Shown one piece after another: positions 4,838 to 47,909 of a stretch of 47,909 nt of DNA (positions are counted from its first letter, which is position 1; each line of letters starts with the position of its first letter). Where the stretch lies: IMG/VR virus record IMGVR_UViG_3300046535_000863, positions 1-47,909 of that record; one strand, written 5' to 3'. This DNA is from a virus. A program made the translations under genes and the position numbers. The notes beneath the pieces are model-generated. The model searched no databases. It saw nothing but the letters and a program-made list of their open reading frames with translations, and was not told where the DNA came from.

Positions 4838-5659
4838 ATGCCCGAGACCCAGGTCGTCGCGCACCATGCGCGGCAGATGCCCGTCGTCGAGTTTGGCAGC
4901 TTCCGGCCGCCCGAGACCGCGCTCGCCGAGGCCGAGCTGGTCGCCAAGGCCTTCGCGCGTCGCGCTGAGGGCTTGAACCTGTTCACCCAGATCGGCGAGT
5001 CTCGTCATCTGAAGATCGAGGGCTGGCAGATGCTCGCGATGATGTATCGCGTCACGGCCGGGATCGTGTCGACCGAGTACGTCGAGTTTGGCTCGCATGA
5101 GGGCTTCGAGGCTACGGCCGAAGCGCTGCTGATCCGCGGCGGCGATCTGTCGCCGATCCGGATCTCGACGGCGCAGGCGATGTGCTTGAACGACGAAGAG
5201 CGTTGGGACGTGCGGCCCGAGTACGACTGGATTCCGGATCCCACGCAGAACGGCAAGAAGGTCAAGACGAAGACCGGCGAAGTGCCGGTGCCGCTCCAGC
5301 AGCTGCGATCGATGGCGCAGACGCGCGCGATCTCGAAGGTCTTGTCGAACCTGCTGAAGTTTGTCGCCGTGATGGCCGGCTACGCCGGCACGCCGGCCGA
5401 AGAGATGCAGGGCGCCAGCGCCCAGCGCGGCGCCCAGGTGCAGCAGCCGCAGCGCGCAAACGGCGGCAACGGCATGCCCAGCGAGAAGCAGATCGGCCGT
5501 CTGTGGGCGATCGCGCACGCCCGCGGCAAGTCCGACGAAGCCGTCGGCGTCATCCTGGCTCATTTCGGCTACAGCTCACCTGACGGCCCGCGCGCGGCCG
5601 CCGATCTCATCAAGAAGGCCGATTACGATCGCGTCGTCGCCGAGGTCGACAAGCCGTGA
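4838..5659 (+). CDS. Candidate single-strand DNA annealing protein
   Basis: This 273-aa protein starts MPETQVVAHHARQMP. The ATG at 4838 follows TAAGGAG with 7-base spacing and is preferred over an in-frame ATG at 4772 that has only a G-run before it. The core includes FTQIGESRHLKIEGWQML, an Arg/Ser/Ala-rich motif LRSMAQTRAISKVLSNLLK and AGYAGTPAEEM. After a Gln/Gly-rich linker comes a small C-terminal domain (SEKQIGRLWAIAHARG). This layout, a conserved core, flexible linker and C-terminal protein-contact domain, is typical of phage annealing proteins, and the neighbours fit. I cannot place it firmly in the Rad52, ERF or RecT classes. Profile searches would settle that. Confidence 0.6.
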   Translation: MPETQVVAHHARQMPVVEFGSFRPPETALAEAELVAKAFARRAEGLNLFTQIGESRHLKIEGWQMLAMMYRVTAGIVSTEYVEFGSHEGFEATAEALLIRGGDLSPIRISTAQAMCLNDEERWDVRPEYDWIPDPTQNGKKVKTKTGEVPVPLQQLRSMAQTRAISKVLSNLLKFVAVMAGYAGTPAEEMQGASAQRGAQVQQPQRANGGNGMPSEKQIGRLWAIAHARGKSDEAVGVILAHFGYSSPDGPRAAADLIKKADYDRVVAEVDKP

Positions 5660-5979: not shown

Positions 5980-8900
5980 AACAGGCCGCCCTGCCGCTCG
6001 CCGCCAAAGAGCGGCGAGTCCTCGATCGATTGCCGGCCGGCGTCCACCTGGCGGCGCGACTTCTGCTTCAACTCGAGCGTCGCGCGATCGGCGTCGATCC
6101 GGCTCTGATACTCGCGATCGGCTTGGCCCTGCAGCTTCAGCGCCTCGGCCCGGGCCCGGTCGAAGTCCGGATCCGGCCGGCGTGCGGCCGCCGCGGCTTC
6201 GGCCGTCCTGCGCTGCTTTTCCGCGGCCTGGTCTGCGCGGCCCTTCTTCTCGAGATCGAGCAGCCGGTATTTCTCCGGATTGGCAGCGCGATCGCGAGCT
6301 GCAGCTGCCTCGGACGCCGTCGGCGTCGGCTCGGTCTCGAGCGCCGCGAAGAGGTCGTCGATCGCCAGTGACGCCTTTTTGATCTTGAGGGCGCCCTCGG
6401 TATCGTTGGCCAGCTTCGAGAGCTGCTCGCCGATCTTCTTCGCGATGCCGGTCGCCTCGGCCTTCACTTCCGGTTTTTCCGCCGGCTTTGCGGCCCGCGG
6501 CGGCGGCCCGAGCGGCTTGCCGCCAGGCCGGAAGGCATCCTCGAAGGCCTGCTGCGGGCCCTTGGGCTCGGGGGTGATCGGGTCCACTTCCCACGCTGCG
6601 ACGCGCGCGTGCCGGCCGCCGACCATGACCTCGAGACTGGGCACAGACTTGCCGCTGTACGGGCTCGTTTCGTTGAACGTCAGAGCGACGCGCCCGGTCT
6701 GTCCTTTTTGCGAATCAAGCACGCCCTGCGCGTTGGGCTTGAGGCGCACAATATCGCCGACTTGGTAGGCCTCGGGCGTCGGTGTGAGCTGGTCACCGAA
6801 TAGCCCGCTCTTAGCGTCGGCATGCTCGGCCGCGGCGCCGGCGGCGGTCTGGTATTCCTTGACGGCTTCGGCGATCCGGCGGCCGCTTACGCGCGTTAAG
6901 GTCTTGGCCAGGCCGATCGCATCCTGGGTATAGCGCGACTCGCCCAGCAGGCCGGTCTGCTTCAAGAACTCGTCCATGTTGCTGCGGCCGTAGCTGTGCA
7001 TTTCATCCAGCAGGTCGAGCGCTTCCTGCAGGCGCGGCATCAGATTCCAGGGCCCGGCGTCCTCGAGCTTGGCGATCGGCGCCGCGATCCGCTCGAGCTT
7101 GCCGGTGACCTTCGCCGGCACGGTATCGAGCTGCGCCGGATCCCTGAAGAAACGGCCGAGCATCAGCTTGATGACGCGCGACTTGCCGGCCGCGGTCAGC
7201 TTGTCGCCCGAGACCAGGCCGGCCTTTTCCTGGCTGGTGATGACGCCGTCGTCGATCAGCCGGTTGAGGATCTCGGGCCCGTCGCCTTCGCCCAGGATCG
7301 AGGTCAGGGTCGCTTCGTCGCCGCCGGCGACCAGGCGCCGGTTGATGTCGTCGAGCGTGTTGTGCGAGACGCGCCGGCTGTCGGCGATCGCGCGCTCGGC
7401 CGGCGTCAGGCTGGCCGTGCCGGTCTTGTTGAGGTCCGTGATCGCGTGCTGCGGGTTGCCCAGGTGCTCGTCGGCGATTTCGCGCACCAGGATCGGCTGC
7501 TTCATGCCGGCGACCTCGGCCGGGTCGATGCCGAACTGCGGCGCCTTGCGCATGAGCATGTCGCGATAGGCCGCGGCGCCCGGCTGGTTGTAGGCATAGA
7601 CGCGCTGCAATTGCATCGTGCGGCCGTTGCCGCCGATCGCGTTGCCGCGGGCGTCGACGACCGGCGGGCCGTTGGCCGGATCGGGGTTATCGGTCAGGTG
7701 CAGGTCGGGCTCGAACTTGCCGCCGGATCCTTCGAGGATCTTGCCCTGGTTTTCCGGCTTGGTGTAGTTGCGATCGTTCACCAGCGAGTACTTCTCGTTC
7801 GGCTGGAAGGTGATGCCGCTGTGCGACGGCTGGACGTCGGCTAGTTCTCGGACTCGGTAAGTGACGGGGAAGCTGCGGCCTTCGCCGGGGATTCTGACGA
7901 CATCCGGGGCAGTCTTTCCCGCGCCTGGCCGATCGCCTGATGCAGGCGCTGCCTGAAGCGGTACGCCTTGACTTCCTTCTCCCGGGTTGGCAGTTTCGCC
8001 CGGTCGAGCAGCTCGGTCACCTTGGGCGGGCTCGGCATTCGCTGGCAGTGTAGCATCCGGCGCAGCGGCCGCGCCAGCGGCATCGGTACTAGTCCCGGCT
8101 AGATCCAGCTGGGCCCGGCCGGCGCCGATCTCGGCCATGTGATCGAAGACGGCCTGCAGAGCTTCGGGACTGGTCGGAGGGTTGACGCCGGCCAGCTCGG
8201 CGATGATGTTCCAGCGGTGATCTCCGAACGGGATCCGCTGGGCCTCTTCGAGCGTGATGGAGGGGCCCGCGGGCGGATTGGCCAGCAGTCGGGCGATCGC
8301 GCGGCCCTTGACCTTGCGCGCGTTCTCCTGGTAGTGCGCTTTGCGGGCCTCGGGCGTGTCGAGTTTCTCAGCCGGCCGGTTATACGCCGGCTCATCAAGC
8401 AGATCAGGCTGGGCGGCAGGCTCGGGCGCTGCAGCAGGCTCTGGTACGGCGGCAGCAGTATCGCTAGTAGTGTCAGCAGGTTGCGCCTCCTGTGCAGCCG
8501 CAGAAACCGGGGTTTCTGCGGTTATTGCGGTTTCTGCGGTGTTTGTGCCGGGTTCCTGCGGGGTTTCCGCGGCCGCTGGCGCTTCGGCCGGCGGGGGGTT
8601 CAGCTTGGCGCCCACGTTGGCCGCCGCGCGCAGGGCGCCCGCCTGCTCTTCCGCGCTGAGGCTTTCAAAGGGCTTGTGCGCCATGCCCTGCGCGATCTCG
8701 TTCAGCAGCTCGGCCGGGGTGAGGGTCTGGGTTTGAGCGGCCGCCGGTGTCCGCTCAAACGTGCGAGCGGCCGGCGTCGGGGTCTGGGCGACAGCTTCAT
8801 CGATGACGGGCGTCCGCGGCTGGACAGCGTTCGGATCCTGGGCGCCCGGGGTGCTCGCGCCCGGCCGAGCTGGCGGCGCCAGGTCGTCTTCGGTGAACAC

Positions 8901-15751: not shown

Positions 15752-18700
15752 CTACTCGATCGGATCGACGGGAAGGTCGACCCAGGTGAAGCCCTCGGGC
15801 GTCTGATTGACCGGCATCGCGACTTCGTGCCAGGCGTCGGGCGTCGGCTCGAGCGGCACGTTGATCCAATCCCACGGGGTATCGTTGGTCTGGATCCGCC
15901 GGCCGAGGATCCGCACGCCGAAAATGCGCGCCACATACGGGCCCACCATGCGGAAGCGCTGCAGCCGGCCCTTGAAGTTGCCCGGCAGCCGGGTCGAGAT
16001 CCGCGCGCGGCCGCTGGTCGTCAGCCCGGTGTCGACGGTCATGCGGGCCCGCACGCGGACGTCGTTTTCGGGCAGCTCGGCCGATGCCTCGACGATCATG
16101 GCGCCCTCGGTCTGCGCGGTGACTTCCAGCTCGCGGAAGATGGCCATGCCATCGACCAGGTCGAGCGGCTGGGTCTCCCAGATCTCGCCGCGGGTTCCGT
16201 CGAAGTAAACACCGATGACGCGCGCGCGGAAGGTCGCCCGGCCGTGCAGGCGCAGCACGCCGCCGGCCGGCGGATAGATCCGCACCTTGAAGAGCTGGCC
16301 ATAGGGCAGCGCCGTCTGCTGGTCGCTGGCGCCGCTTAACGTCGGATCCTCGAAGGGCAGCATCCGCGGCGCCCTGGTCTGCGTCGGCAGCGCGATCGTG
16401 CGCTGCAGCACCAGGGCATTGCCCGGCAGGTCGCCATAGATCTCGAGCCGGCCGGATCCGGATCCGCCGACGGTGTCATAGTCGAGCAGCAGATCCTTCA
16501 GCTCGCCGACGCGCGCCGGCGCGACCGAGAACTCGGCAGACTCGAAGTACTCGCCGATGGTGCCGTCGATGTATTCGCCGATCGGCCGCATGCGCAGCCT
16601 GGCCTGGTGGACTTGGAAGAGCCCGGTCGCCGCCGAGGCCCACATGCGCCAGTTGCGGCCGTCGACCTGCGCCGGCAGCCGGAAGCGGATATTCCCGCGG
16701 CCGTTGGGCGCCGTGAAGGTCTCATCGTTGCGGTGCACCAGCAGCGAGCCGGGCAGGTCGCTCGAAATGACGTTGCGGATCTGCTGGCCGGCCGCGGTCA
16801 GGTAGAACTCGGCATAGTCGACTTCTTTCACGCGCTCAGGAAGCCCGAGGTGCGTCGGGCCCGTGTCAAACGTGGCCGCCAGGCGCTCTTCCGGATACCA
16901 GTGAATGTAGACGCCATAGATGACGATCGTCCCGAGGTAGTCCGATTCCACGCGCACGGCCGCATTCTTCGCGATGATGCCGGGGTCGTCGCCGGTCGTC
17001 GTCTTAAACATGGCCGTAAAGCGCGGCTTGGCCGCCGAGCTGCTCGAGCAGGTCCCAAGCAGGATCTTGGTGCCGTTGTTATAGACCAGGTACACCGACA
17101 GCGTCGCGTTGGGCCCGCTCGGCGCCATGGTCTGACAATCGATTTCGATGTCAGTCATCACCTTGTTGTTATCCGGCAGGCCCATGTCTTCATAGGCGCT
17201 CTGCCAGCGCGCCGTCGCGCTCAGGCCGTTGTCGAGATAGAAGCCCTCCAGCTCGAGCGAATAGAGATAGCCGCCGCCCGAGGCGCCGGTTGCGCCGGCC
17301 ATCATCTGGAAGCCCGGGCCCTCGTACAGAATGCAGGTGAATGCCGGCGCCGCCAGGTTGGTGTATTTCTCGAGCGCCCAGCGCTGCGTCGGCTTGTGGT
17401 AGACGGCGACGACGTTCGGCAGCGTCTTGCCCTGCTCGGGATAGCAGAAGCGCAGCCGGTCGCCGATGACGGCGATCGACACATTGGCGACCGCGGCGGC
17501 CTCGAATGACATCGGCGGCAGCACTTCGCCGTCGGCCAGCTCGACGAAGCCGCCCTTGAAGATGGGATCGATCGCCGAGCTGATCTTCTCTTCTTGATCG
17601 CCGTCGAACTTGTAAATCCCTTCCCAGGCAGCGACCCAGTCGACAGCGCCATCGGTGGCGACAGCGTTTTCGCCCAAGGCGCCGATCGCTGCATTGGTCT
17701 GGATCGGATCGGCAAAGGCCGGATCGCCCACCAGGCGCCAGATCGAGCGGCGCTTATAGAGCAGCGCGACGGTCTTGTGCAGGGTGACCGTCAGGATCTC
17801 GTCTTCGTCGCTGCCGGCGTCTTCCCAGTTGCCTAGGAAGTCATCGGTTGCGCCCGGGAAGCTCCAGGCGATGCCGGCGTCGGTCCAGAAGTAGCGCGCC
17901 GGATGAAACAAGACGTTATAGGCGATCAGCTTGCCATAGAAGGGGCCGACGACGCCCTTGGCCTTGGGCGGGGCCTCGCGTGTCACGGGCATGACGACGT
18001 TATTGGCCTGCGCCTGGCGGTTGGTCGTGTCGTCTTCCCAGGGCCCGGTCGAGCTATTGCCGGCCAGCTTGCCCACCAGCAGCGCCGCGCTCAGGCCGCC
18101 GCCGATCCGCCAGATCCGGCGGGCCGCGATGTTGGGATCCGCCGAAACGGGGATATTGGTCAGGGTCACCGTCTGCGTGCCGGCGACGACTGCATTGGAT
18201 GCCGGGCCCGGCGGGCCGTCTTCGCCGTCGGTGTTCTCGAAACTGACGAAGTAGCTGATCGCGCCCGAGCTGTTCTCGCCCACGGTGCCGACGAACTCGA
18301 GCCGATCGAGCCCGATGTTGCAGTCGCTGTTTGTCTTGACCGTGACGCCGATCTCGGTCACGTCCTGCCAGTTGACGCGCAGCATGGCCTCGGAGGGCGG
18401 ATAGGTCGCCGGCGGCGTGCCGCCGATGCCGGTCTGCGGCCAGGCCGAGCCGGTGTAGACGAAGGTCGGCTGCTGCAGCTCGGTCGCGAAGCGCGCCTCG
18501 AGGTCGCTGATGGTCGTCGGGTTCGAGCCCGGGTCATTCGTCGCCGCGGTGACTCGCTGGGTCCAGTCGTCAATGTTCAGGCGCCGGCGGATCTTCAGCT
18601 GGGTCCAGCTGTTCAGCGCCTGGTTGAGAAACTTGGCCGGATCCTGGAAGGTGAACTCCGCATAGCCGGCGTTGCTGGTGCCGGCGGCGCCGGTCTTGAC

Positions 18701-19477
18701 GTAGACCGTCAGGGCATCGACCGCGGCCGGGTTGGTGCAGAAGACCCAGATCCGGATCAGATCGGTGTCGAGCGTCTGCGCGTCGACGGATCCATCGAAA
18801 CCGGACAGCGCCACGTAAGCGGTGACCGAGGTCGCGCCCGCGATCGCCATACGCAGCGAGGCGGCGCCCGATTGCTTATTATCGCTGTCGAAGTCGGCGA
18901 CGACCTGGTCATTGGCGACCGCGACGCCGGCCTTGAGCGCGTAATCGGTGAAGGGATCGGCGCCGTTCGGCGGCGAATCGATCGCGACATTCATCGTGCC
19001 GTCGGCTGCATCGAACTCGGTGACCAGCGTCGTGAGCTGGCCGCCGCCGGTGGCGGTCGGGCCTGTCGCCGGCGTCGACGGACACCAGGGCACGACCTCC
19101 GTGCCGAAGTTCCGGATCTTCTTCTGCTTGGCCTGGTTCATCATCCAGGCGGCGCCGCGGAAGAATGCTAGGCCGACAGGCTTGCCATCTAAGCCGGTGA
19201 CCAGCTCGGTCGCGCTCGAGCCGCCATAGCTGGCATGCCATAGGCTGGTTCCGATGCCCAGATAGCGATCGTTCGAGGACCGGCGCAGCGTGTGGAACGT
19301 GCCGGCGCCGATCGGGCCCAGCTCCTGGTTGCTGCCGAAACGGGTGCGCAGCTCGTCGACCTGGTCTACGCGAAAGTTTTCGACCAGCCGCGAGTAGCCC
19401 GGCGCCAGGTTATCGCCCGGGGGCAGCAGCTGCATGCCGCCCGTATAGAGCCGCTTGCGTTCGGTCTTACTCGCCAT
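15752..19477 (-). CDS. Very large tail protein, nozzle/stabiliser type
   Basis: This 1241-aa protein starts MASKTERKRLYTGGMQLLPPGD. The first 55 residues follow a pattern seen in short-tail nozzle and stabilisation proteins: Gly-rich start, PP..N..PGY, then ENFRVDQVDELRTRFGS. Repeated short blades such as TFHTLRRSSNDRYLGIGTSLW and VVAVYHKPTQRWALEKYTN suggest a beta-propeller, followed by several beta domains to the C-terminus. It comes directly before the fibre genes and after the adaptor-like gene, as expected for the distal tail tube of a podovirus. It is larger than T7 gp12, so extra domains are appended. Structural role good; exact homologue uncertain. Confidence 0.7.
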   Translation of the reverse strand: MASKTERKRLYTGGMQLLPPGDNLAPGYSRLVENFRVDQVDELRTRFGSNQELGPIGAGTFHTLRRSSNDRYLGIGTSLWHASYGGSSATELVTGLDGKPVGLAFFRGAAWMMNQAKQKKIRNFGTEVVPWCPSTPATGPTATGGGQLTTLVTEFDAADGTMNVAIDSPPNGADPFTDYALKAGVAVANDQVVADFDSDNKQSGAASLRMAIAGATSVTAYVALSGFDGSVDAQTLDTDLIRIWVFCTNPAAVDALTVYVKTGAAGTSNAGYAEFTFQDPAKFLNQALNSWTQLKIRRRLNIDDWTQRVTAATNDPGSNPTTISDLEARFATELQQPTFVYTGSAWPQTGIGGTPPATYPPSEAMLRVNWQDVTEIGVTVKTNSDCNIGLDRLEFVGTVGENSSGAISYFVSFENTDGEDGPPGPASNAVVAGTQTVTLTNIPVSADPNIAARRIWRIGGGLSAALLVGKLAGNSSTGPWEDDTTNRQAQANNVVMPVTREAPPKAKGVVGPFYGKLIAYNVLFHPARYFWTDAGIAWSFPGATDDFLGNWEDAGSDEDEILTVTLHKTVALLYKRRSIWRLVGDPAFADPIQTNAAIGALGENAVATDGAVDWVAAWEGIYKFDGDQEEKISSAIDPIFKGGFVELADGEVLPPMSFEAAAVANVSIAVIGDRLRFCYPEQGKTLPNVVAVYHKPTQRWALEKYTNLAAPAFTCILYEGPGFQMMAGATGASGGGYLYSLELEGFYLDNGLSATARWQSAYEDMGLPDNNKVMTDIEIDCQTMAPSGPNATLSVYLVYNNGTKILLGTCSSSSAAKPRFTAMFKTTTGDDPGIIAKNAAVRVESDYLGTIVIYGVYIHWYPEERLAATFDTGPTHLGLPERVKEVDYAEFYLTAAGQQIRNVISSDLPGSLLVHRNDETFTAPNGRGNIRFRLPAQVDGRNWRMWASAATGLFQVHQARLRMRPIGEYIDGTIGEYFESAEFSVAPARVGELKDLLLDYDTVGGSGSGRLEIYGDLPGNALVLQRTIALPTQTRAPRMLPFEDPTLSGASDQQTALPYGQLFKVRIYPPAGGVLRLHGRATFRARVIGVYFDGTRGEIWETQPLDLVDGMAIFRELEVTAQTEGAMIVEASAELPENDVRVRARMTVDTGLTTSGRARISTRLPGNFKGRLQRFRMVGPYVARIFGVRILGRRIQTNDTPWDWINVPLEPTPDAWHEVAMPVNQTPEGFTWVDLPVDPIE

Positions 19478-27114: not shown

Positions 27115-28038
27115 TTACTGGCCGGCGTTGCCGACGACGCCGATATAGTTGTTCCAGCCGTGGCTCTTCTTGTAGCGCATGCCGACGATGCCGACCTCGG
27201 TCTCGTCGTCGGTCCAGCTCTTGGTGTACGGCTTCTTGCGATCGAACCAGACCAGCCCGGTGTCCTGCGGCTCGGCGACCAGGAACCACGCATTCGGCGC
27301 GGTCAGGTACGGCCAGACGAACATATCCGGCATGCCGTCTTCGGCGCCGCCCAGCGGGTTGATCGAGCGCTGCGCGGTCTCCGGATCGTCGGGGCTCTTG
27401 GTCAAGATGTGCGCGACGAAGCGATTGGACGGATGCACGACCAGCTTCGACGGCTTGATGTGGATCAGCTCGCCCGAGGGCCGCTTCATCAGCTCGAACA
27501 CCGTGAGCGCCAGCTGCAGGCTGTAGCTGTCCAGATCGGCCGCGGTCATGAGATTCGACTGCAGGCCGCCGGCCTTGTAGAGCGGGTGCGAGGCGCTGAA
27601 GAGCGGCACGCCGTCGGGCCCGAAGAAGGCCGCCGAGTTGGTGAAGCCGTTATTGAACGTGCCGACGGCATCCAGCTCGCGGGTCTCGTTGCAGCTCCAG
27701 CCGAGATCGCGGTGCATGTTCTCGATCAGTTGCCACTCGTCATCCTCGACGACGTCGATGGTCGTCGGCACGGCCAGGCCGAAGCGCTTGTGCGTGAAGG
27801 TCGACTTGAAGCCCTGCACGGGCTGGTCGTAGCGGATCTTCCCGCCGACGGGGATCGCGCCGAAACGGCCGACGCCCGAGACCTGACTGAACTGCTCAAG
27901 CGAACGGCTCGAGGGGTTCATCTGGAAGATCTGCGAGAACTTGACCGGCCGCGCGCGATAGCCGCGATCGATGACCGCGCGCAGGCCCGGCAGCATTGTC
28001 TCGCCGTAGAAGTTACCGAAATTACCCGGGACTAGCAT
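27115..28038 (-). CDS. Major capsid protein (HK97-fold)
   Basis: This 307-aa protein starts MLVPGNFGNFYGETMLPG after AAGGAG. The length and features fit an HK97-fold coat protein of the Mu gpT-like type: N-arm, VPTTIDVVEDDEWQLIENMHRDLGW as the long spine helix, LFSASHPL, LMTAADLDSYSLQLA, IKPSKLVVHPSNRFVAHIL as the P-domain strand and WFLVAEPQ. It is preceded by a decoration-like gene, a Lys-rich gene and the scaffold-like gene, the classic head module. Its own message may be governed by the structured intergenic region at 28623-28908. Confidence 0.85.
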   Translation of the reverse strand: MLVPGNFGNFYGETMLPGLRAVIDRGYRARPVKFSQIFQMNPSSRSLEQFSQVSGVGRFGAIPVGGKIRYDQPVQGFKSTFTHKRFGLAVPTTIDVVEDDEWQLIENMHRDLGWSCNETRELDAVGTFNNGFTNSAAFFGPDGVPLFSASHPLYKAGGLQSNLMTAADLDSYSLQLALTVFELMKRPSGELIHIKPSKLVVHPSNRFVAHILTKSPDDPETAQRSINPLGGAEDGMPDMFVWPYLTAPNAWFLVAEPQDTGLVWFDRKKPYTKSWTDDETEVGIVGMRYKKSHGWNNYIGVVGNAGQ

Positions 28039-28908: not shown

Positions 28909-29700
28909 CTATTCGTGCCGCAGCGGCTCGGGCTGGACCGTGCGCAGCAGCTCGCTGTCGCTGGCCGCCTGGTCTTCATCCTCGAGGCCGATCGCTGCAT
29001 CGCTGGCGCCTTTGCGACGCAGCAGGCCGCCGCGCTCGCGCCGATCCATGAGTCTCTCCGAAGCCTCTTCTACCTTGTCGAGCGCGCTCACTTGCTTGTC
29101 GTGATTGACGCGCGCGTAGTAGGCGTCGGACTTGCGCACCAGCTCTTCGGGCACGCTGGCCAGGAACATATTGCCGCAGGTGACCTCCTTCAGGCCGCCC
29201 TTTCCGTCGTCGACCAGCACGGGCTTGTACGTCAGCACGCCGCGGGTCAGGCCTCGCTCGCTGGTCTGCCGGCGCGACATGAACATGCCGCGGTGACCTT
29301 TGGGCGTGAACTGCTCGAGCAGCGGGCCCATCGGGTCGACGGACATCGTCAGGCCTTCGGTGTCGATCGTGAGCGCGTCCCTGAAGGCCTCGGCCTTTTT
29401 GTCGTCATCGCTCAGCTGGTCGTAGATGGTCTGAGCCGGCCGGGCTCGTTTGCTGTAGTCGACCGGCAGCGCGCGCCGCTCGGCTTCCATGGCGGCCTTG
29501 CCCTGGTCGGTGAGCGAGATCGGGAACGTGTCCCAGCACTCGGGCGGCAGCGGTTTGCCGTTCACGGTGTAGGCGCTCAGGTCCTTGCCCTGGCCGGCGC
29601 CGGGCGAGTCGGGTGTGCCGCCGTGCCGCTTCGATTCGCCGACGCCCTGCGCGATCGCCTTCTTCTCGGCCTGGTTCTTGCTCCTGTTAGTTGCGGCCAT
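28909..29700 (-). CDS. Charged hypothetical head-region protein, 263 aa
   Basis: It starts MAATNRSKNQAEKKAIAQG; ATG 29700 overlaps the previous gene by 14 bases. It has a basic N-terminus and Gly/Pro-rich spacer, a central folded region (TMSVDPMGPLLEQFTPKGHRGMF, VLTYKPVLVDDGKGGLKEVTCGNMFLASVP) and a charged helical C-terminus (LDKVEEASERLMDRRERGG). Placed between the scaffold-like and decoration-like genes, it may be an internal head or assembly protein. Family not recognised. Confidence 0.65.
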   Translation of the reverse strand: MAATNRSKNQAEKKAIAQGVGESKRHGGTPDSPGAGQGKDLSAYTVNGKPLPPECWDTFPISLTDQGKAAMEAERRALPVDYSKRARPAQTIYDQLSDDDKKAEAFRDALTIDTEGLTMSVDPMGPLLEQFTPKGHRGMFMSRRQTSERGLTRGVLTYKPVLVDDGKGGLKEVTCGNMFLASVPEELVRKSDAYYARVNHDKQVSALDKVEEASERLMDRRERGGLLRRKGASDAAIGLEDEDQAASDSELLRTVQPEPLRHE

Positions 29701-30631
29701 TGCGGCGCCCTCCCTTCGCATCCTTGTGGCGATCGTACTCTTCCGGTTTGACCTTGAGCCGCTTCATGACCTCGAGCGAGTCGGCCGAGTGACCGCCGCC
29801 GGCGTCGGTGTCTTCATCCTCGCGACCGCGGTCGGGATTCTGGCGCGCGATCCGCTGCCGGCGGCGCGCCTGGTCGTCGTCATCGGCCGCAGCTCCGCGG
29901 CGCGGTGCCGGCTCGTCACTGGCGCCCTTGCCGCCCTTCAGTGCGGCCTTGGCCTGGCGCGCAGCGATCAGCAGCAGCCCGCGGGAGTTTTTGAGCGACG
30001 GATCGAGGTCGACCAGCTCGCGATAAATCTCGCCGGCCTTGGCGAACAGCTCCGACTTGGGCGCCAGGCCTTTCGCTACCCGATTGGAGTCTTCCATCAT
30101 TTCGGGGAACTCGGCTTCCAGCCGGCCCGTGAATACGGCCTCGTTGCGGGCCTCGGTGATGTCGGCCTGGTTGCTTTCGCGGACGTCCTCGAGGGCTTGC
30201 GCCAGCTCGTCTTTGCTGATGAAGCCGCGATCGCTCAAGGCGGCCAGGCCGCGCTTGTTCAGATCGTCGATCAGCTCTTCGGGCTTCTCGATAGGTGCGG
30301 CCGCGGGCTCGCGCCGCCTGGGCGCCGGCTCTTCATCGTCGGCCGCGCGCCTGGCCGGCGCTGCTGCTGCATTGCGCGCGCGATCGGCCCAGTAGCGAGC
30401 GTCGCGGGCGTTCTCATCGGCGACGGCTTTCAGCCGCTTGTTGTCGGCTTCCAGCTCTTCGGCCCGCTGCTCGGCCGCGGTCTTCCTGGGCGTAGCCGGC
30501 GCCGGGGTGTCATCATCGAGGGGATGCTCGGCGCCTGGATCGGCGACGCGAACGGTATCGGATCCGCCGCCGCCGCCTTCATCTTCAGGAGCCCGCAAGG
30601 GCGAGGGGATAACGTCAAACCAGCGGCGCAT
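29687..30631 (-). CDS. Scaffold-like protein
   Basis: This 314-aa protein is highly charged, with long low-complexity stretches, a coiled-coil segment (AAEQRAEELEADNKRLKAVADENARDA, about 52-78), a helical core (about 115-225) and a Lys/Arg-rich C-terminus (EVMKRLKVKPEEYDRHKDAKG). Phage scaffolds are typically acidic, helical and end in a basic coat-binding segment, and sit just upstream of the coat gene, as here. GAGGAAGGA precedes ATG 30631. Function inferred from composition and place. Confidence 0.65.
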   Translation of the reverse strand: MRRWFDVIPSPLRAPEDEGGGGGSDTVRVADPGAEHPLDDDTPAPATPRKTAAEQRAEELEADNKRLKAVADENARDARYWADRARNAAAAPARRAADDEEPAPRRREPAAAPIEKPEELIDDLNKRGLAALSDRGFISKDELAQALEDVRESNQADITEARNEAVFTGRLEAEFPEMMEDSNRVAKGLAPKSELFAKAGEIYRELVDLDPSLKNSRGLLLIAARQAKAALKGGKGASDEPAPRRGAAADDDDQARRRQRIARQNPDRGREDEDTDAGGGHSADSLEVMKRLKVKPEEYDRHKDAKGGRRNGRN

Positions 30632-30696: not shown

Positions 30697-30975
30697 TTAT
30701 AGCACAAACTTGGAGAGCGCCAGCACTTCGCGGAAGGGCATCCCCATCAATCGATCATGTGCCTCGCGGGCGCAGGCCAGGACTAGCCGATCGCTTTCGA
30801 CACTTTTGGTATCGAGATATTTCGGCGCCCGTTCCTGGTAAATCTCGCGCATGACTTTATAGTGGGCCGTCGGCTCGAGCCCGTGATCGACCCGATAGAC
30901 ATCAGTCATCAGATGCGGAAACTCTTCATCCAGCGCGAGGTTGACCTCGTCCTTACTCATCAGGTCGGGGCTCAT
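30697..30975 (-). CDS. Hypothetical protein, 92 aa
   Basis: It starts MSPDLMSKDEVNLALDEEF at an ATGA overlap (30975). It is helical, with many charged residues (YKVMREIYQERAPKYLDTKSVESDRLVLACAREAHDRL). No family recognised. It is the last of a run of small coupled genes upstream of the scaffold-like gene; the 65-bp gap after it is the only break. Confidence 0.65.
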   Translation of the reverse strand: MSPDLMSKDEVNLALDEEFPHLMTDVYRVDHGLEPTAHYKVMREIYQERAPKYLDTKSVESDRLVLACAREAHDRLMGMPFREVLALSKFVL

Positions 30976-31316
30976 AGATTCCGCTGCTTGCCGAACGGCG
31001 TGCCGGCGAACTGGTCGCGCCGCTTCAGCACATAGATCTTGTCGCACGGCGCGCACAGCATGCCGAAGGTCCCGTCGATCCAGTGCGGGTACATTTTGAC
31101 GGTCTCGGTCAGCTCGCGCTTGGCCAGCTCGAGGAAGCTGATCTGGCAGAGCGCGCACTCCTTCGGCGGGCTCCAGCCCTCGAGGACCTCGCGCTGCTTT
31201 ATGTAGCAGTCCCAGCAGATCAGGCTCGCGATGCCCATGCGCACGACCTCGCTCGGCGAGACCTGCTTCGAGCAGTCCATGCAGCGCAGCGCGATGATGA
31301 TGCCCGAGCTGCTCAT
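30972..31316 (-). CDS. Multi-zinc-knuckle protein
   Basis: This 114-aa protein has four CxxC pairs: C12/C15, C34/C37, C54/C57 and C88/C91 (RCMDC, ICWDC, ECALC, LCAPC), enough for two zinc ribbons. Between them are helical stretches. Its start and stop overlap neighbours (ATGA). It is next to another CxxC protein, so the pair may form one DNA- or protein-binding unit made with the head genes. Role unknown. Confidence 0.7.
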   Translation of the reverse strand: MSSSGIIIALRCMDCSKQVSPSEVVRMGIASLICWDCYIKQREVLEGWSPPKECALCQISFLELAKRELTETVKMYPHWIDGTFGMLCAPCDKIYVLKRRDQFAGTPFGKQRNL

Positions 31317-32305: not shown

Positions 32306-32464
32306 TTAGCAGCTCGCTCCTTCCGCCATGAACTGGCTACCCAGTGTTTTCGCGACGCCGCCCTTCTTGGTCGCCGCCGCGGCCTTCTTCTTCGCCGGCA
32401 TGCCGGCTTTCTTGGATGGATACGCCGACGGCCCAGCGGCCGCGGCTTTCTTCATCGGGAACAT
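32306..32464 (-). CDS. Very basic 52-aa protein with shared C-terminal motif
   Basis: Encodes MFPMKKAAAAGPSAYPS followed by KKAGMPAKKKAAAATKKGG and ending VAKTLGSQFMAEGASC. The Lys/Ala blocks resemble histone-tail peptides. The last part aligns with the C-termini of the two upstream proteins (KK.G.A..LG.QFM). Its stop touches the next start, and ATG 32464 lies one base before the end of the upstream gene. It is probably a DNA-binding or packaged peptide. Confidence 0.65.
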   Translation of the reverse strand: MFPMKKAAAAGPSAYPSKKAGMPAKKKAAAATKKGGVAKTLGSQFMAEGASC

Positions 32465-32465
32465 C

Positions 32466-32693
32466 TTAGACCTCCATGAGCTGCGCGCCGATCCGCTGCG
32501 CCGTGCCCTTTTTCTTCTTCGCCTGGTCGCGGGTGTGCTTGGCTTCCATCGCCTTGCCCTTCGCCGTTTCCTTGTTGCCGTGCATGGCGCCCATGTTGTT
32601 CATCGCGCCGTAGACGTAGCGATCGGCTGCGCGGCCGCTCTTGCCGGCCTTGGCTGCGCCGGCTTCGAGTCGCTCTTCGAGAAACTTCGGCAT
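32466..32693 (-). CDS. Basic 75-aa protein ending in KKKKGTAQRIGAQLMEV
   Basis: It starts MPKFLEERLEAGAAKAGKSG. It is rich in Lys, Ala, Gly and Met, with a helical N-terminus and a C-terminal motif at 59-74. That motif is almost the same as in the 86-aa protein just upstream and related in the 52-aa protein just downstream. The shared tail suggests a common target, for example a portal or capsid docking signal (inference). Confidence 0.7.
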   Translation of the reverse strand: MPKFLEERLEAGAAKAGKSGRAADRYVYGAMNNMGAMHGNKETAKGKAMEAKHTRDQAKKKKGTAQRIGAQLMEV

Positions 32694-32695
32694 GG

Positions 32696-32956
32696 CTATT
32701 GCTCCATCAGCTGGCCGCCGATGACGTCGGCGGTCCCGGGCTTTTTCTTCTTCTTGACCGGCGCCGCGGGCGCAGCAGCTGCCGGCGGCTTGGCGAGCTG
32801 GCGCGCGGCCTGCTTGTTGGCCAGGTCTCCGATGTCGATGCCCGAGGGCGTCGCCGGCGGCGCAGGAGCTGCAGGAGCTGGCGCGCCGGCGGCCGCGGAT
32901 CGAAGCGGCGCTGCAGCGGGGAAAAGCAGGTCTTTGAGACTTTGGAAGCCGGCCAT
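32696..32956 (-). CDS. Pro/Ala-rich 86-aa protein ending in KKKKKPGTADVIGGQLMEQ
   Basis: It starts MAGFQSLKDLLFPAAAPLR. It has a short hydrophobic N-terminus, a long disordered Ala/Pro linker and a basic C-terminal motif (68-85) with the shape K4-x-GTA-xx-IG-x-QLME. It is first of three neighbouring genes with this tail. The linker-plus-tail architecture fits a tethered docking peptide. Confidence 0.7.
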   Translation of the reverse strand: MAGFQSLKDLLFPAAAPLRSAAAGAPAPAAPAPPATPSGIDIGDLANKQAARQLAKPPAAAAPAAPVKKKKKPGTADVIGGQLMEQ

Positions 32957-32959
32957 GGT

Positions 32960-33244
32960 TTAACCCTCGTCGTCGTCTGCCGCCGCTGGCGCCTTCATAC
33001 CTTCGCGCATCAGAATATCAGGAATCGAGCCGACCGCGCGCAGGGCCTCGAGATAGCCGCGGATCAGGGCCGTGTTGGTCTCGCCCTGGTCTTGTTCCAG
33101 CTCGAGCAGCTTCACCTGGCGCATGTGCTGGATCCTGGCGGCGATCAGCTTCCAGCCGCGGGTCTGCAGGGTCTCGCGGATCTGCTCGGCGTCGACGCGA
33201 TCGAGCACCAGGCGCTTCTGTTTACTCTTTCGGGGGGTCGGCAT
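32960..33244 (-). CDS. Small helical hypothetical protein, 94 aa
   Basis: It starts MPTPRKSKQKRLVLDRVDA; the internal ATG is preferred because the longer frame reads back through the membrane-protein gene. A basic N-terminus is followed by one long helical domain (ETLQTRGWKLIAARIQHMRQVKLLELEQDQGE) and an acidic end (AAADDDEG). Family unknown. Sits between the membrane protein and the shared-tail genes. Confidence 0.6.
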   Translation of the reverse strand: MPTPRKSKQKRLVLDRVDAEQIRETLQTRGWKLIAARIQHMRQVKLLELEQDQGETNTALIRGYLEALRAVGSIPDILMREGMKAPAAADDDEG

Positions 33245-33251
33245 TCCGTGT

Positions 33252-33446
33252 TCATCGGCCGCCAAAGTGGAAGCCGGCGACCGCGGCCCATACGCCGAAG
33301 AACTGCAGCACGGCGACGACGGCGCAGACAATGATTACGAAGACGATGATCTGCTTGATCGTCGCATTCTCAAACGGCGCCCGGTCGATCAGCCAGGCCG
33401 CGGCGCCCAGGCCGAGCAGGATCAAGATCAGCGTGAGTAGGGTCAT
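33252..33446 (-). CDS. Small membrane protein, Thivi_2564-like
   Basis: This 64-aa protein has two transmembrane helices (about 2-19 LLTLILILLGLGAAAWL and 32-52 IIVFVIIVCAVVAVLQFFG) with a short polar hinge of charged residues (IDRAPFENATIKQ). It matches what I know of the Thivi_2564 family of small phage and bacterial membrane proteins. It is placed just after the portal gene. Its role is unknown; holin-like or membrane-docking functions are both possible. Confidence 0.7.
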   Translation of the reverse strand: MTLLTLILILLGLGAAAWLIDRAPFENATIKQIIVFVIIVCAVVAVLQFFGVWAAVAGFHFGGR

Positions 33447-33455
33447 GCCCAGAGT

Positions 33456-35759
33456 CTACGTGATCTGTGCGCTGGGTGCAGGCGCGGCCAGCGCCGGCTG
33501 CTCGGGCGCCGGATTGACGGGCGGCCCGCCGAAACCACCAGCAGCCCCGGGCCCGGCCGGCTGCGCGCCGCCGGATCCATCGGGCGCCAGCTGCGGCGCG
33601 GCGCCGCCGTTCTGCTGCTGGGCGGCCTGCATGGCAGCGATCGCCTTCTGCGCCAGCTGCTGCAGCAGCATCTTCTGCCGCTTCTGCCGCTCATGCTCGA
33701 TGATGTGCGCCTTGGCCAGGTGCTGCAGCTGCAGGTCCTGCCGCTCGTCGGGCTCGTTGATCTCATCCTCGAGCCGGCGCCGGTGATCGATCAGGTGCTG
33801 GTCGTCGTCGTCGATCGGCGAGACGTGCACGACCTCGCCCTTGAGCATCAGCGCCCATTCTTCCTTTGGCATCTTCGGGCGCTCGGGGTGCGGCGGCTCG
33901 GGGATAACGTCCTGGAAGCCGTCCTCGCCGAAGGCCTGCCAGATCCGATTGAGCAGGGTCCAGAGGGCCTTCGGATCCTGCTGCACGATCGGATTCTGGA
34001 TCGAAAGACCGTAGAGCTGCATCAGCATCTGCTTCTTGGCCTCGCGGGCCCAGACCGACGTCGCGAAGCGAATATCGAACGCGAAGGGATGCTCGCGCTC
34101 TTCGGCCGTCATCGTGCCGAAGCCGTTCGAGACGTCGTAGCCGACGGCGTCCTCTTCGGTCACTCGGAAGAAGACCTTCTTGTCGCCATACTCGCGATCG
34201 AGCAGCCACACCAGCGAAGCGAACTTCGAGAAATCCTCGCGCAGCATCATCATGTCCAGGCCCGAGCGCGTGTTGCCTTCCTGCAGCAGCATCGCCTGGC
34301 CGGCCGCGGTCTGCGGCGCATTCGGGCGATCGCTGGCGCGGCCGAGCGATTGATCGTTGACGCCGGTCACCAGCTCGGCGATCGCCTTCAAGGCCTGATT
34401 CATGGCCTGGCAGTACTCGAGATTCGCGTTGAACGTGACGACCTTCACGCTGGTCGGGTCCATAGTGGGGATCGCTACGCCGGCGTCGTACTTGAAGGTC
34501 TCCGGATCGAACTCGCCGTTAGGCTTGTAGAAAATGACCGGGCCCGTCGACAGCTGGCCGGCCTTGCGGAACAGAGCATGATTGATGGATAGCTCGTTCT
34601 GAAGGTCCTCGAGCAGCTCGCCGATGCCCGGCGCCCAGTAGCTGCCGTCTTTCACCGTGGCCAGGTCGACGAAGGGATGCCGCTTGCGCATGCGCGGATA
34701 GACGTCGCGCAGATCCTGGATCCCGATTATCAGGTTGACCTTGGGCAGCACGGTGACCAGCAGCTCGGACTGCTTTACCTCGCGGTACTTCAGATTATTC
34801 GGGGTCGCATCGCGATCGCTCTTGGGCAGCCGCCATTTTCCATACCAGCGCCAGACCTCGAGCGAGTCGCGCCGGCCGAGCGTGTTGACTTTGTCGACGC
34901 CCTCGGCTTCGTCCGAGTCGATCTTCTCATCGTCCCACCAGAAATCTCGTTCCTGGCGCTGCTGCGCGCTGCTCGAGATCGCTGTCCAGCGATCCTGAAT
35001 GCCGAAGTACTTGCCCTTTTCCTCGCCGTCGAGCAGCTCCTGCGGGGTGATGCGATCGCGCCGGATCTTCCAGTCGAAATCGTCGATCGAGTCGACATCC
35101 ATGGCCGGCAGAATAAGCTGCGACGGCCAGAGCGCGCGCAGCTTCGGGCCGTCGTAGGCCCGCACCTCGCGATCGTCGCCGGTCTTTTCGTCGCGCTCGA
35201 AGTAGTACTCCTGCTCATAGATGCACTCGCCGAACGCACGCCCGAACAGGATCCCGCGGAAGACCCAGGTCGACAGCGGGATCGCTGCCTGCATGTACTC
35301 GAAGATGCGCCAGGTCATGTATGTGCCGACCTTGCGCGCGTCGGCCTTCGACGTCGGCGCCGTGGCGCGCGCGACGATCTCAGCATCATCGCCGAGCAGC
35401 GCCTGCATGAACTTTGCCCACTGGCCGAAGACGGTCCACTTGATGAGCGGCACCTGCAGATCCTGGCCGGCGTTGCGATCGCCGTGCGTCTGATTCAGGC
35501 CTCGCCACATGCGCCAGTAGCGGCGAAAGCGGTTGATCCGGCTGTCGTGATCGGCGCGGGCGGCAATGAAGTTTTCCCAGATGTGCTGATAGAGGCGCTG
35601 TTGCTCGCGCGGCGTCGCGCGAATCTGCTTATAGACGATGTGCGCCGCGGCCTTCTCGGGCGGATCCTCGCGATCGGCCGGCTCATGCGTCAGGGCCTCG
35701 GGCAGCGGGCCCGGCTCCATCTCCTGCGGGTTATCTTGGAACGGCGGGCGCGGCGTCAT
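33456..35759 (-). CDS. Portal protein
   Basis: This 767-aa protein starts MTPRPPFQDNPQEMEPG; ATG 35759 is preferred, with a GTG at 35774 in frame as alternative. The core has the classic portal sequence style: QVPLIKWTVFGQWAKFMQALLGDDAEIV, STWVFRGILFGRAFGECIYEQ, DIRDVYP-type segments and GIGELLEDLQNELSINHALF. A Gln/Ala-rich C-terminal tail (about 700-767) follows. The large size suits portals of short-tailed phages. It is next to TerL and the scaffold module, and overlaps the upstream small gene by 29 bases. Confidence 0.85.
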   Translation of the reverse strand: MTPRPPFQDNPQEMEPGPLPEALTHEPADREDPPEKAAAHIVYKQIRATPREQQRLYQHIWENFIAARADHDSRINRFRRYWRMWRGLNQTHGDRNAGQDLQVPLIKWTVFGQWAKFMQALLGDDAEIVARATAPTSKADARKVGTYMTWRIFEYMQAAIPLSTWVFRGILFGRAFGECIYEQEYYFERDEKTGDDREVRAYDGPKLRALWPSQLILPAMDVDSIDDFDWKIRRDRITPQELLDGEEKGKYFGIQDRWTAISSSAQQRQERDFWWDDEKIDSDEAEGVDKVNTLGRRDSLEVWRWYGKWRLPKSDRDATPNNLKYREVKQSELLVTVLPKVNLIIGIQDLRDVYPRMRKRHPFVDLATVKDGSYWAPGIGELLEDLQNELSINHALFRKAGQLSTGPVIFYKPNGEFDPETFKYDAGVAIPTMDPTSVKVVTFNANLEYCQAMNQALKAIAELVTGVNDQSLGRASDRPNAPQTAAGQAMLLQEGNTRSGLDMMMLREDFSKFASLVWLLDREYGDKKVFFRVTEEDAVGYDVSNGFGTMTAEEREHPFAFDIRFATSVWAREAKKQMLMQLYGLSIQNPIVQQDPKALWTLLNRIWQAFGEDGFQDVIPEPPHPERPKMPKEEWALMLKGEVVHVSPIDDDDQHLIDHRRRLEDEINEPDERQDLQLQHLAKAHIIEHERQKRQKMLLQQLAQKAIAAMQAAQQQNGGAAPQLAPDGSGGAQPAGPGAAGGFGGPPVNPAPEQPALAAPAPSAQIT

Positions 35760-36108
35760 GATGAGGGGCCTCACTTGCCGCCGCCGCGGCCTTATCTGCT
35801 TCCTTGAACGGATTGCGATCGGCTGCCAGCTTCAGCAAGTCGGCCAGCTCGGCCAATGGCCGCGGAGGATCCCCGAAGGTGTCCTGCACGCCGGTCTCGA
35901 GCAGCTGGCGCGCTGCGCGCTCGAGATATTCCCAGTTAATGACCAGGTGAACCGGCTCGACCGCCATCGCTCCGAGGGCCTCGACCAGGTCAGTCGAGCG
36001 GATGTAGATGCCGCGATGCCGCACGCGGATACATTTCGCCCAGCGCGCGGGCTGCTCAATGATCGGTGTCACCAGCTCGGCCGTGTCAGTGATCGGTGTC
36101 GTCTTCAT
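35731..36108 (-). CDS. Hypothetical protein between terminase and portal
   Basis: This 125-aa protein starts MKTTPITDTAELVTPIIEQP. It has a mixed N-terminal part (WAKCIRVRHRGIYIRSTDLVEAL), a helical middle (ERAARQLLETGV) and an Ala-rich tail. It overlaps TerL by 23 bases and the portal gene by 29. Small proteins between TerL and portal often have assembly roles; no family recognised here. Confidence 0.65.
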   Translation of the reverse strand: MKTTPITDTAELVTPIIEQPARWAKCIRVRHRGIYIRSTDLVEALGAMAVEPVHLVINWEYLERAARQLLETGVQDTFGDPPRPLAELADLLKLAADRNPFKEADKAAAAASEAPHHDAAPAVPR

Positions 36109-37816
36109 CTCGCGATCGCTTCACCCCGTACTTTACCACTGCGCGGCCTACGTTTTCGTTCCCTGGTTTGCCGATCCGTTTGGGGATCGCACGGCGGCCT
36201 ATCTCCGCGAAACATAAGGCGAGTACACAATCATCGTGCGCGCCGTCCTGGTGCTCCTTCTTTCCGTTGGGTTTGATGACGAAACGGATCAGCTCATTGA
36301 TGGCGACCGGCGAGACTACCGTGATCGCCTGCGTGCGGATGGCATCTTCGCCGGCGCCGATCAGCCAGCTGCGCGTTAGCGGCGTGGTCTCGAAGCCGAT
36401 CTCTTCGATCGTCGCCGGCCGCTTGTCGGTCGGATCCCTCTGCCGCTGATAGATCGACGCCATCGGGTAGCGTGTGCGCACCAGCGAGTCGATGAAGCCG
36501 GCATCGTTGGCCTCGGGCACCAGGAACGCATAGTTATACCACTGGCCGACGAGGGCGAAATACTCCGCGAAGGCGACGGGCCGGATCCGCGCGCGCAGCA
36601 TCGCGACCTGCTCGCCGGTGTCGGCGTCGATGAAGAAGCCGACGCTATAGTCGGGGTCTTCGCCCTTCTTGCGCACTGATACGTCGATGCCCTTTGAGGG
36701 ATCGCCGCCGCCCACATAGCGCCGGCCGTCGATCGGCCGCTTCCAGATCGTGAGGGCGCCGCGGTCGTTCGGCTTGAACACCAGGCGCTTGATCGGGCCT
36801 TCGTCGTCGAGCTGCTCAAGCTCGCCCGCCTGGCCGCCGACCGAGGGCATGCGCATGATCGCCTTGTGATCGAAGACCGGGCGGCCGCTGGCCAGAAAGG
36901 CCTCTTCCGGCGTCGTCGGATACTCCTGATGGAAGGCCTCGACCGAGTTGCCGAGATCGGTCGCGATCTTCCAGCGGCGCCAGTAGAGCTGCTCGAGGGT
37001 GGCGCCGTGGGTCTCATGCAGCGCGCGCTCTTCCTTGTCCAGGCTCTGCGAAAACTTGACCATGGCCTGCACGTTGTCAAAGTGGCGAACGAAGAGCGGA
37101 TGCTCGAGCCAGCCGAAGAAAACGAACTCATAGCCGCCTTCGTTGCTGGGATCCTGCGCGCGCTGGCAGTATTCGTAGAACTCGCCGCCGATGCCGTTGG
37201 CCGTCGACTGGATGATGACGGAGGTCTCGGGCAGGAACGGCACCATGTTCAGCACGCCGAGCAGCGTCAGGGCCGCATCGCGCCAGAAGGCGACCTCGTC
37301 GCATAGGGTCGAATGCCGGCCGCCGCCGCGGATCTCGCCGGCCTCGGCAGATAGCACCTCGATGCTCGAGCCGTTCGCCCAGGCAATTTCTTGCTGGCTG
37401 TCTTTGATGAGCGGCTTCAGCTTGATGCCGGCGCCGTGCCGGCGGAAGGCCTTATACCTACGCTGGAACTGCAGCAGGTAGTCGAAGGCCTCTTTGCCCG
37501 CCGGCTTGTAGGTGTCGGCGATGATCAGCCCCTTCCGGCCCGGGTAGAAAGGTACTTCGTGGAACATCTCGGCGCAGCTGCCCGTCGTGAAGCCCGAGCG
37601 GCGCGTCTTCAGCACGACCAGGCGCACGGGCCGATGCTTGGCGCGCTGCCGCTCGATGGCGGCGTGCAGCTTGATCTGGCTGGGCTCGAGGATGAGCGGC
37701 ACGACGCTGCCGCCGCGGTTGCGGATTGAGAGCGACTCGGCGCAGAAGGTCGCATGGTCGTCGAAGGCGAGCGCGAGGTCCTGGCGTTCGGCCAGGGTGA
37801 GATCTGCCAGCTCCAT
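36086..37816 (-). CDS. terL: Terminase large subunit
   Basis: This 576-aa two-domain packaging motor carries a Walker A-like LKTRRSGFTTG (69-79), Walker B LCDEVAF with D173-E174, and coupling motif IIQSTANG (201-208). In the C-terminal RNase H-fold nuclease the acidic residues are D372 (GGDPSKG), E435 (PEAND) and D528/D529 (AHDDC). All expected catalytic groups are present and the length is normal. It cuts and pumps DNA into the procapsid through the portal. ATG 37816 overlaps the TerS stop. It is the third gene from the terminator-bounded start of the packaging module. Confidence 0.95.
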   Translation of the reverse strand: MELADLTLAERQDLALAFDDHATFCAESLSIRNRGGSVVPLILEPSQIKLHAAIERQRAKHRPVRLVVLKTRRSGFTTGSCAEMFHEVPFYPGRKGLIIADTYKPAGKEAFDYLLQFQRRYKAFRRHGAGIKLKPLIKDSQQEIAWANGSSIEVLSAEAGEIRGGGRHSTLCDEVAFWRDAALTLLGVLNMVPFLPETSVIIQSTANGIGGEFYEYCQRAQDPSNEGGYEFVFFGWLEHPLFVRHFDNVQAMVKFSQSLDKEERALHETHGATLEQLYWRRWKIATDLGNSVEAFHQEYPTTPEEAFLASGRPVFDHKAIMRMPSVGGQAGELEQLDDEGPIKRLVFKPNDRGALTIWKRPIDGRRYVGGGDPSKGIDVSVRKKGEDPDYSVGFFIDADTGEQVAMLRARIRPVAFAEYFALVGQWYNYAFLVPEANDAGFIDSLVRTRYPMASIYQRQRDPTDKRPATIEEIGFETTPLTRSWLIGAGEDAIRTQAITVVSPVAINELIRFVIKPNGKKEHQDGAHDDCVLALCFAEIGRRAIPKRIGKPGNENVGRAVVKYGVKRSRDEDDTDH

Positions 37817-47025: not shown

Positions 47026-47909
47026 TGCGCGGCCGCCTTCTGGCCAGTCGCCGGCGGCGACTTCCTGGCCTTCTTCTGGCGCTCCATCGCCGCCGCCCGC
47101 TGCTGTTTGAATGTCTTGCGCAGCGCGCTGCCGACGTCCCGGTCGAGTTTCTTGCGGTCGAGTTTATAGGGGTACTCGAAGTCCTTGCGCTGTTCCGGCC
47201 GGTGCGCCATGCCCAGCGCCAGGATCCCCACGATCAGCCGCGCGATGGTCTTATCCGTCGCGGCGATCAGGTGCGCGGCGATCGCCTTCTCGAGCGGATT
47301 GTCGCGCCAGGTGCGCCTCTGCTCGGCGGCCTCGGTAATCTCGAAGCCGACGGCGCCCGCCAACCATTTCAGATCGTCGTCGCCGCAACCGTCGAGCAGC
47401 TCGATTGCGATCGCGCGCATCTCATGCCGGCCGAGGGCCTTGACCTTGGTCATGATCTGCGACGCGACGCGCCGATCGACGGCCTCTTCAATCTGGCCGG
47501 TGAGCTGCCGCTCTTTGTCGCGCCAGACGTCGGCCGCGGTGCGCGGCGTCGAGCGGTAGCCGTGATGCTTGCAGCCGCGGGTCGTGCAGATCTGCAACTT
47601 CTGGCCGACGTCGTCGCCGGCGACGATGATCGCCGATAACGGCTTGGCGCATTTACTCTTGATCGCGGGCTCGTACTGGCCAGGCAGCAGGACACTTTTC
47701 GGGTGCTTCTTGTTGCGTTCGCCATAGCCGGCGGCGACCTTGACCAGGTCGATGCCCTTTTCGCCGGCCTTGGCGATCCGCAGCTGCACCAGGGCGCCCT
47801 GCTTGGCTGCGAAACACTTGCGATCGAGACAGCGGTCGTCTTTGCCGGTGTCGTCGAATAACGCCAGATTGGCGCCGGTGCGCTTCTGGCAGGCCGTGCA
47901 CGATCCGGC
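47022..47909 (-). CDS. parB: ParB partition protein, C-terminal part (continues from base 127)
   Basis: This is the remainder of the 521-aa ParB; the first 40 codons here are the same as codons 227-266 of the left part because of the terminal repeat. The cluster CTTRGCKHHG (C334, C339, H341, H342) adds to the Cys set near 230-258, so the middle of the protein probably binds zinc, as in some plasmid and phage ParB-type proteins. The helical C-terminal 150 residues end in a basic tail (KKARKSPPATGQKAAAQ). No ParA-like ATPase is encoded anywhere in the window. Dimerisation through the C-terminus, as in the family, is assumed. Confidence 0.9.
   Translation of the reverse strand, partial: AGSCTACQKRTGANLALFDDTGKDDRCLDRKCFAAKQGALVQLRIAKAGEKGIDLVKVAAGYGERNKKHPKSVLLPGQYEPAIKSKCAKPLSAIIVAGDDVGQKLQICTTRGCKHHGYRSTPRTAADVWRDKERQLTGQIEEAVDRRVASQIMTKVKALGRHEMRAIAIELLDGCGDDDLKWLAGAVGFEITEAAEQRRTWRDNPLEKAIAAHLIAATDKTIARLIVGILALGMAHRPEQRKDFEYPYKLDRKKLDRDVGSALRKTFKQQRAAAMERQKKARKSPPATGQKAAAQ
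47783..47909. repeat. Terminal direct repeat, right copy
   Basis: This stretch is identical to bases 1-127. It lies inside parB, which reads through it in frame, so it is the circular closing overlap rather than an independent element. Confidence 0.95.

Follow-up and report, generated by a model that had tools for sequence, protein, structure and literature searches.

What leads three neighboring phage genes to carry the same short ending on unrelated bodies? The question is raised by genes A, B, and C, three consecutive minus-strand genes whose products of 86, 75, and 52 aa have in common a Lys-rich linker followed by a short C-terminal tail (Table 1). They lie in IMG/VR record IMGVR_UViG_3300046535_000863, analyzed here over its whole length of 47,909 bases (the window). 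Because an identical 127-base direct repeat stands at both ends of the record, the genome is probably complete. Its gene order is terminase large subunit, portal, a 64-aa protein, a 123-aa protein (p123), A, B, C, p144, p97, p84, p114, p314, p270, p182, and major capsid protein; elsewhere, the match of a 1241-aa protein to an internal virion protein family points to a podovirus-like particle. PHROG and Pfam searches gave no family match for A, B, or C, nor for p314, the probable scaffold protein.

Table 1. Features discussed in the text; positions refer to the window unless another genome (L number) is named
Feature	Position	Strand	Basis or description
Terminal direct repeat, 127 bases	1-127 and 47783-47909		identical copies
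1241-aa protein	15752-19477	-	match to internal virion protein family phrog_511
Major capsid protein	27115..28038	-	Pfam Phage_capsid_4 2.3e-11; PHROG major head protein
p314, probable scaffold protein	29687..30631	-	place in the gene order, preceding p270, p182, and capsid protein; composition; conserved
p114, scaffold-side border of slot	30972..31316	-	four CxxC pairs; sequence; conserved in relatives
Gene C, 52 aa	32306..32464	-	ORF; short Lys/Ala-rich protein, tail at end
Tail of C, KKGGVAKTLGSQFMAEGASC	32309..32368	-	sequence
Gene B, 75 aa	32466..32693	-	ORF; body with GAMHGNKETAKGKAMEAKH, then tail
Tail of B, KKKKGTAQRIGAQLMEV	32469..32519	-	sequence
Gene A, 86 aa	32696..32956	-	ORF; N-terminal FQSLKDLLFP helix, Pro/Ala linker, GIDIGDLA segment, Lys linker, tail
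Tail of A, KKKKKPGTADVIGGQLMEQ	32699..32755	-	sequence
p123, conserved; portal-side border of slot in most relatives	32960..33331	-	tblastn across relatives
Portal protein	33456..35774	-	PHROG portal/head-tail adaptor matches
Terminase large subunit	36086-37816
MPW-type protein, L150	7350-7508
MPW-type protein, L032	5960-6136
MPW-type protein, L041	about 5409-5582
MPW-type protein, L028	inside 5985-6452

Two observations concern the genes that border this slot. The TTG start listed for p123 is probably too early, because its homologue in the nearest relative begins at the equivalent of an internal MPTPRKS start, which would give a protein of about 94 aa. The CxxC pairs of p114 are zinc-ribbon-like, and its gene precedes the scaffold gene, a place taken by a GroES-like gene in several cultured relatives.

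The tails of A, B, and C are alike beyond chance

Over their last 20 aa, the three proteins give local alignment scores of 55 (A-B), 36 (A-C), and 37 (B-C), with shuffle p values of <0.0002, 0.0006, and 0.0002, respectively. None of the 3741 other gene-end pairs, which are the C-terminus pairs among the other called genes of the window, scores above 35. The claim of the first-pass annotation that three consecutive small genes here encode the same C-terminal tail was therefore borne out, as were its coordinates. Its account of how the proteins end needs a minor correction for C, which finishes ...MAEGASC and so carries the motif 6 residues from the C-terminus.

The tails of A and B contain ATGGAG (Met-Glu; 32702-32707 and 32472-32477, minus strand), which is the likely Shine-Dalgarno sequence of the next gene, so the very end of these two tails may partly have another cause. 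After trimming from that Met onward, 0, 2, and 0 of the 3741 other pairs reach the A-B, A-C, and B-C scores; for an 11-residue core without lysines, the corresponding numbers are 0, 13, and 6. Codons differ at 6 of the 11 scoreable identical residues of the A and B tails, and at 75 of 170 identical residues when all the tail pairs that we compared are considered. These differences argue for a similarity preserved in the protein sequence, as opposed to a recently copied stretch of DNA.

The tail recurs on six body types in uncultured relatives

Scanning IMG/VR with portal, capsid, and terminase profiles yielded 48 distinct genomes having p114 plus the portal or p123. Tagged proteins numbered 31, spread over 18 lineages of uncultured phages, and every one of them is encoded in the slot between portal and p114. 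They fall into six body types: A (5 proteins), B (3), H (7; HPGFKAVQ...GAILAS), G (7, taking in a short member from L013; EP..GGF), short K-rich (5, taking in C), and F (4; similar to phrog_16160). A genome has one to four tagged genes, with two to four in each of 10 lineages, and the net charge of every tagged protein lies between +5 and +15.

The first-pass annotation had said that its reading would fall if homologues of these genes proved tailless; this check did not go against it, since the tail is present in all the homologues of A (L001, L024, L029, and L035) and of B (L001 and L035) that we found, as well as on further unrelated bodies in the slot. Short K-rich tagged proteins similar to C occur in L024, L050, L140, and L147. 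In the nearest relative, L001, whose portal is 86% identical, A ends in the tail KKKPNVATTVGTTLMETP and B in KKMKSRGVAAKLGAQLMEA, and C is absent. L013 (portal 58%) has two different small slot genes with unrelated bodies, ending KTMHQQIADRMTDGY and KPMHQQIAERMIGG. Four tagged genes stand in a row in L035, three of which end SLGSNLMKGHA, TLGANLMKGGK, and AGTMQKNLMGGGQ, and in L144, L147, and L149 a second tagged gene is of the F type (PWQDVANKMLNR, PWQDIADRMLGAK, and PWQHVANQMLGGR).

Searching cultured phages with the portal revealed none related at E<1e-5, and searching with B, an H-type protein, and the MPW-type protein described below found nothing; cultured relatives picked up by the capsid protein have no such tagged gene pairs. 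Host-genome searches with capsid and portal profiles returned nothing beyond one contig found before.

The tails conform to the consensus [W/A/H]xx[ILV][AG]x[QNR][ML][LM], followed by 1 to 14 residues and the stop. Among the 31 aligned tails, I, L, or V occupies position 0 in 29 (M in the other 2), A or G occupies position 1 in 30, position 4 always holds M, L, or F, position 5 holds L or M in 28, and W or A stands at position -3 in 22; because the alignment anchor was set by eye, these counts describe the set and do not constitute a test. The spacing of the conserved positions fits one face of a helix. The final residue of the protein is unconstrained, with Q, V, C, P, A, Y, G, K, S, and R all seen. 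We considered a T4-like protease site (LxE in QLME) and rejected it, since most tails are without LxE.

An independent scan of all IMG/VR (2.9 million contigs) with the pattern W-x-G-[FLIMV]-A-N-Q-M-L/F, which represents one variant of the tail, returned 15 stretches, 14 of which are tails in the portal-p114 slot of the same phage group, with about nine lineages represented since several matches are copies of each other; the fifteenth is an unrelated coding sequence. These 14 matches sit on four different bodies, and the H, G, and K bodies also share a tail extension, approximately ASGVxxPKSxNGGR. A strict DNA pattern of the window's own tail, run over IMG/VR, recovered the closest relative and otherwise nothing but chance matches.

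The tag follows the head module

A maximum-likelihood tree built on the capsid protein places the phages that carry the tag in two clades, both supported at 100/100. All 16 members of these clades in which the slot is covered are tagged, the four untagged leaves being contigs that do not cover it; the tag thus appears to travel with the head module. In clade I, leaving out the window and L001, the general motif ends 9 of 21 called slot genes versus 1 of 108 other genes (p=1e-7), and in clade II it ends 5 of 11 called slot genes versus 0 of 69 other genes (p=2e-5), p values that are descriptive because the motif was drawn up after the tails of both clades had been seen. Outside both clades, it stands at the end of 1 of 97 slot genes and 4 of 449 other genes. 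A position-specific scoring matrix built only from the tails of the window and L001 separates slot genes in the other clade I genomes (p=7e-5) and does not separate those of clade II (p=0.37), which only the general motif reaches.

The bodies have a wider distribution. Homologues of the H-type body occur outside the clades without the tail in L034 (a Bradyrhizobium phage), L044, and L090, and the same is true of the F-type body in L154 (a Tunturiibacter phage), L110, L098, and L097.

Tails match their genomic neighbors

If one co-evolving partner in each phage binds the tag, tails should be alike across bodies within a genome, and this is what we see. The mean tail score is 29.7 for different bodies in one genome; between genomes, it is 19.9 for different bodies and 23.6 when the body is the same. 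When genome labels were shuffled inside body types, the within-genome likeness had p=0.0001, and p=0.0004 when they were shuffled within clades. The H-type proteins illustrate the pattern, as their bodies align well and their tails diverge, matching those of genomic neighbors instead. Within-genome pairs are weak in L024, L028, and L035_G. Recent copying of tail DNA between genes seems unlikely given the codon differences at shared residues; older exchange of tails between neighboring genes, or a partner outside the head, could also produce such likeness.

A proposed docking tag for head assembly, and its alternatives

The reading of the tail as a docking tag is well supported: the suggestion in the first-pass annotation that a shared tail on unrelated bodies marks a docking signal gains from the tagged homologues and from tails that match within genomes across unrelated bodies. 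We lean, if only slightly, toward a modular C-terminal tag that brings interchangeable small basic proteins to a component of head assembly. The tag would consist of a flexible Lys/Pro/Ala-rich linker and then one short amphipathic helix, and would couple swappable small basic proteins to a single partner encoded by the same phage. That partner would most likely be a head-assembly component, such as the inner capsid face, the scaffold, or the portal barrel. The tagged proteins might in this way be carried into the procapsid, and their basic bodies could there touch the DNA or be expelled along with it. Packaging into the head, also suggested in the first-pass annotation, is consistent with where the genes lie and with the basic charge of their products; the single partner, its identity as a head component, the loading, and the payload roles are steps that we infer.

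In an AlphaFold model of an H-type homologue, the body is helical (pLDDT about 80), the linker lacks structure, and the tail forms a short helix of low confidence. We take the tail as a candidate amphipathic helix; the tail models are generally of low confidence, and that of B is poor. A Foldseek search with the H-type model returned only HU-like helices at E>2, to which we give no evidential weight, and profile searches of solved structures gave no match.

A variant of the same explanation differs in the partner. Here the tag would bind the portal barrel or internal core instead of the capsid wall or scaffold, and the tagged proteins would belong to the ejection apparatus as built-in components, in the manner of T7 gp6.7 and gp7.3, whose genes lie beside the portal gene. 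The nearness of the tagged genes to the portal gene, the podovirus-like character suggested by the internal virion protein match, and the location of T7 gp6.7 between portal barrel and core (PMC11784390) all speak for it. We nevertheless think it unlikely, because tagged proteins vary from one to four and in kind by genome, a variation more in line with optional cargo than with fixed components of a machine, and because no homology to T7 proteins was found.

It is similarly improbable that the tag acts outside the virion, with its helix tethering the small proteins to each other or to a host target, a membrane, or a replication or expression factor during infection. A short amphipathic helix behind a Lys-rich linker could serve any such tethering; against this, the tails are strictly limited to the structural gene slot and the capsid clades, and the helix is short, broken by Gly, Gln, and Asn, and not membrane-like. 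The short hydrophobic C-terminal element on several proteins also recalls a degradation tag for a host protease. Degrons of the ssrA type are read at the free C-terminal end, whereas here 1 to 14 residues follow the motif and the terminal residue is free to vary, making this a very improbable explanation. Equally remote is a likeness empty of docking function, left by old duplication, low-complexity Lys-rich sequence, and overlapping Shine-Dalgarno sites: the ATGGAG overlaps and the Lys/Ala-rich composition would favor it, but it is largely refuted already, with chance, composition, and Shine-Dalgarno overlap largely excluded by pair scores, trimming, and enrichment tests, by likeness that persists without the overlapping codons, by the codon differences, by unrelated bodies that also occur without tails, and by enrichment only in slot genes of two clades.

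Returning to head docking, a bolder form would make the tail a C-terminal head-loading code in the two clades, such that any small protein gaining it rides in the virion and reaches the host, with payloads swapped freely and the tail co-evolving with one head protein. We regard this stronger version as possible but rather doubtful.

Relation to known systems

Phage T4 internal proteins bear a capsid targeting sequence at the N-terminus (PMC3012670), and the head signal of P1 DarB is N-terminal as well (PMC9024508). The present tails resemble these in that a single short conserved element recurs on proteins of one phage that are otherwise unlike, a situation seen in 10 lineages. However, all 31 are C-terminal and of other sequence, and head loading is for them a proposal. 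Classical encapsulin cargo is docked inside an HK97-fold shell by a C-terminal targeting peptide (PMC8346489), likewise a short peptide after a flexible linker, but encapsulins are cellular compartments with enzyme cargo and another motif, whereas here small basic proteins are encoded among phage terminase, portal, and capsid genes. We therefore claim membership in neither group, the first failing on position and the second on shell setting. T7 gp6.7, which bridges portal and core (PMC11784390), shares with A, B, and C a small gene near the portal gene of a podovirus-like phage; for gp6.7 and gp7.3, however, no common C-terminal tag is described, and PHROG and Pfam revealed no homology to A, B, or C. 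Finally, phrog_16160 and small proteins of Bradyrhizobium phage ppBeUSDA76-2 and Tunturiibacter phage Tunturi_2 are homologous to F-type or H-type bodies, and these cultured-phage members end without the tail.

A full-text search of open-licence papers for C-terminal elements common to several phage virion proteins, or for packaging signals on them, did not turn up a description of the tag, and its novelty is provisional because the search was confined to such papers. Should head loading prove true, tailed phages would possess a C-terminal capsid-loading signal shared by an entire range of exchangeable payloads. Such a signal would also offer a simple means of searching uncultured phages for undescribed proteins carried in the virion, and a possible handle to package chosen proteins. 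Even without head loading, the locus clearly exemplifies a tag at the protein level that unrelated small genes share and that stays matched inside each genome.

Possible origin of the tail and hosts

The motif also occurs internally in a family of small proteins that we call MPW-type (MPW..KDA...TKKA.TPK..R.W..IAN.LL..GASEG.AIR.ANGV; Table 1). Its member in L150, a separate small slot protein (MPWTPKDAKKKTKKARTPKLQRQWTHIANRLLASGASEGSAIRQANGVIGRQ), has W..IAN.LLASG within a longer domain. The tail may represent the first helix of an MPW-type protein fused to other bodies, which we offer as a lead. A weak match of the MPW-type protein to DUF3693 was left unused.

One relative, L015 (contig JAJPHS010000159.1), lies on a contig assigned to the genome bin of a Terriglobia member (Acidobacteriota). 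Together with the F-type body in a Tunturiibacter phage, this contig hints that the hosts are Acidobacteriota.
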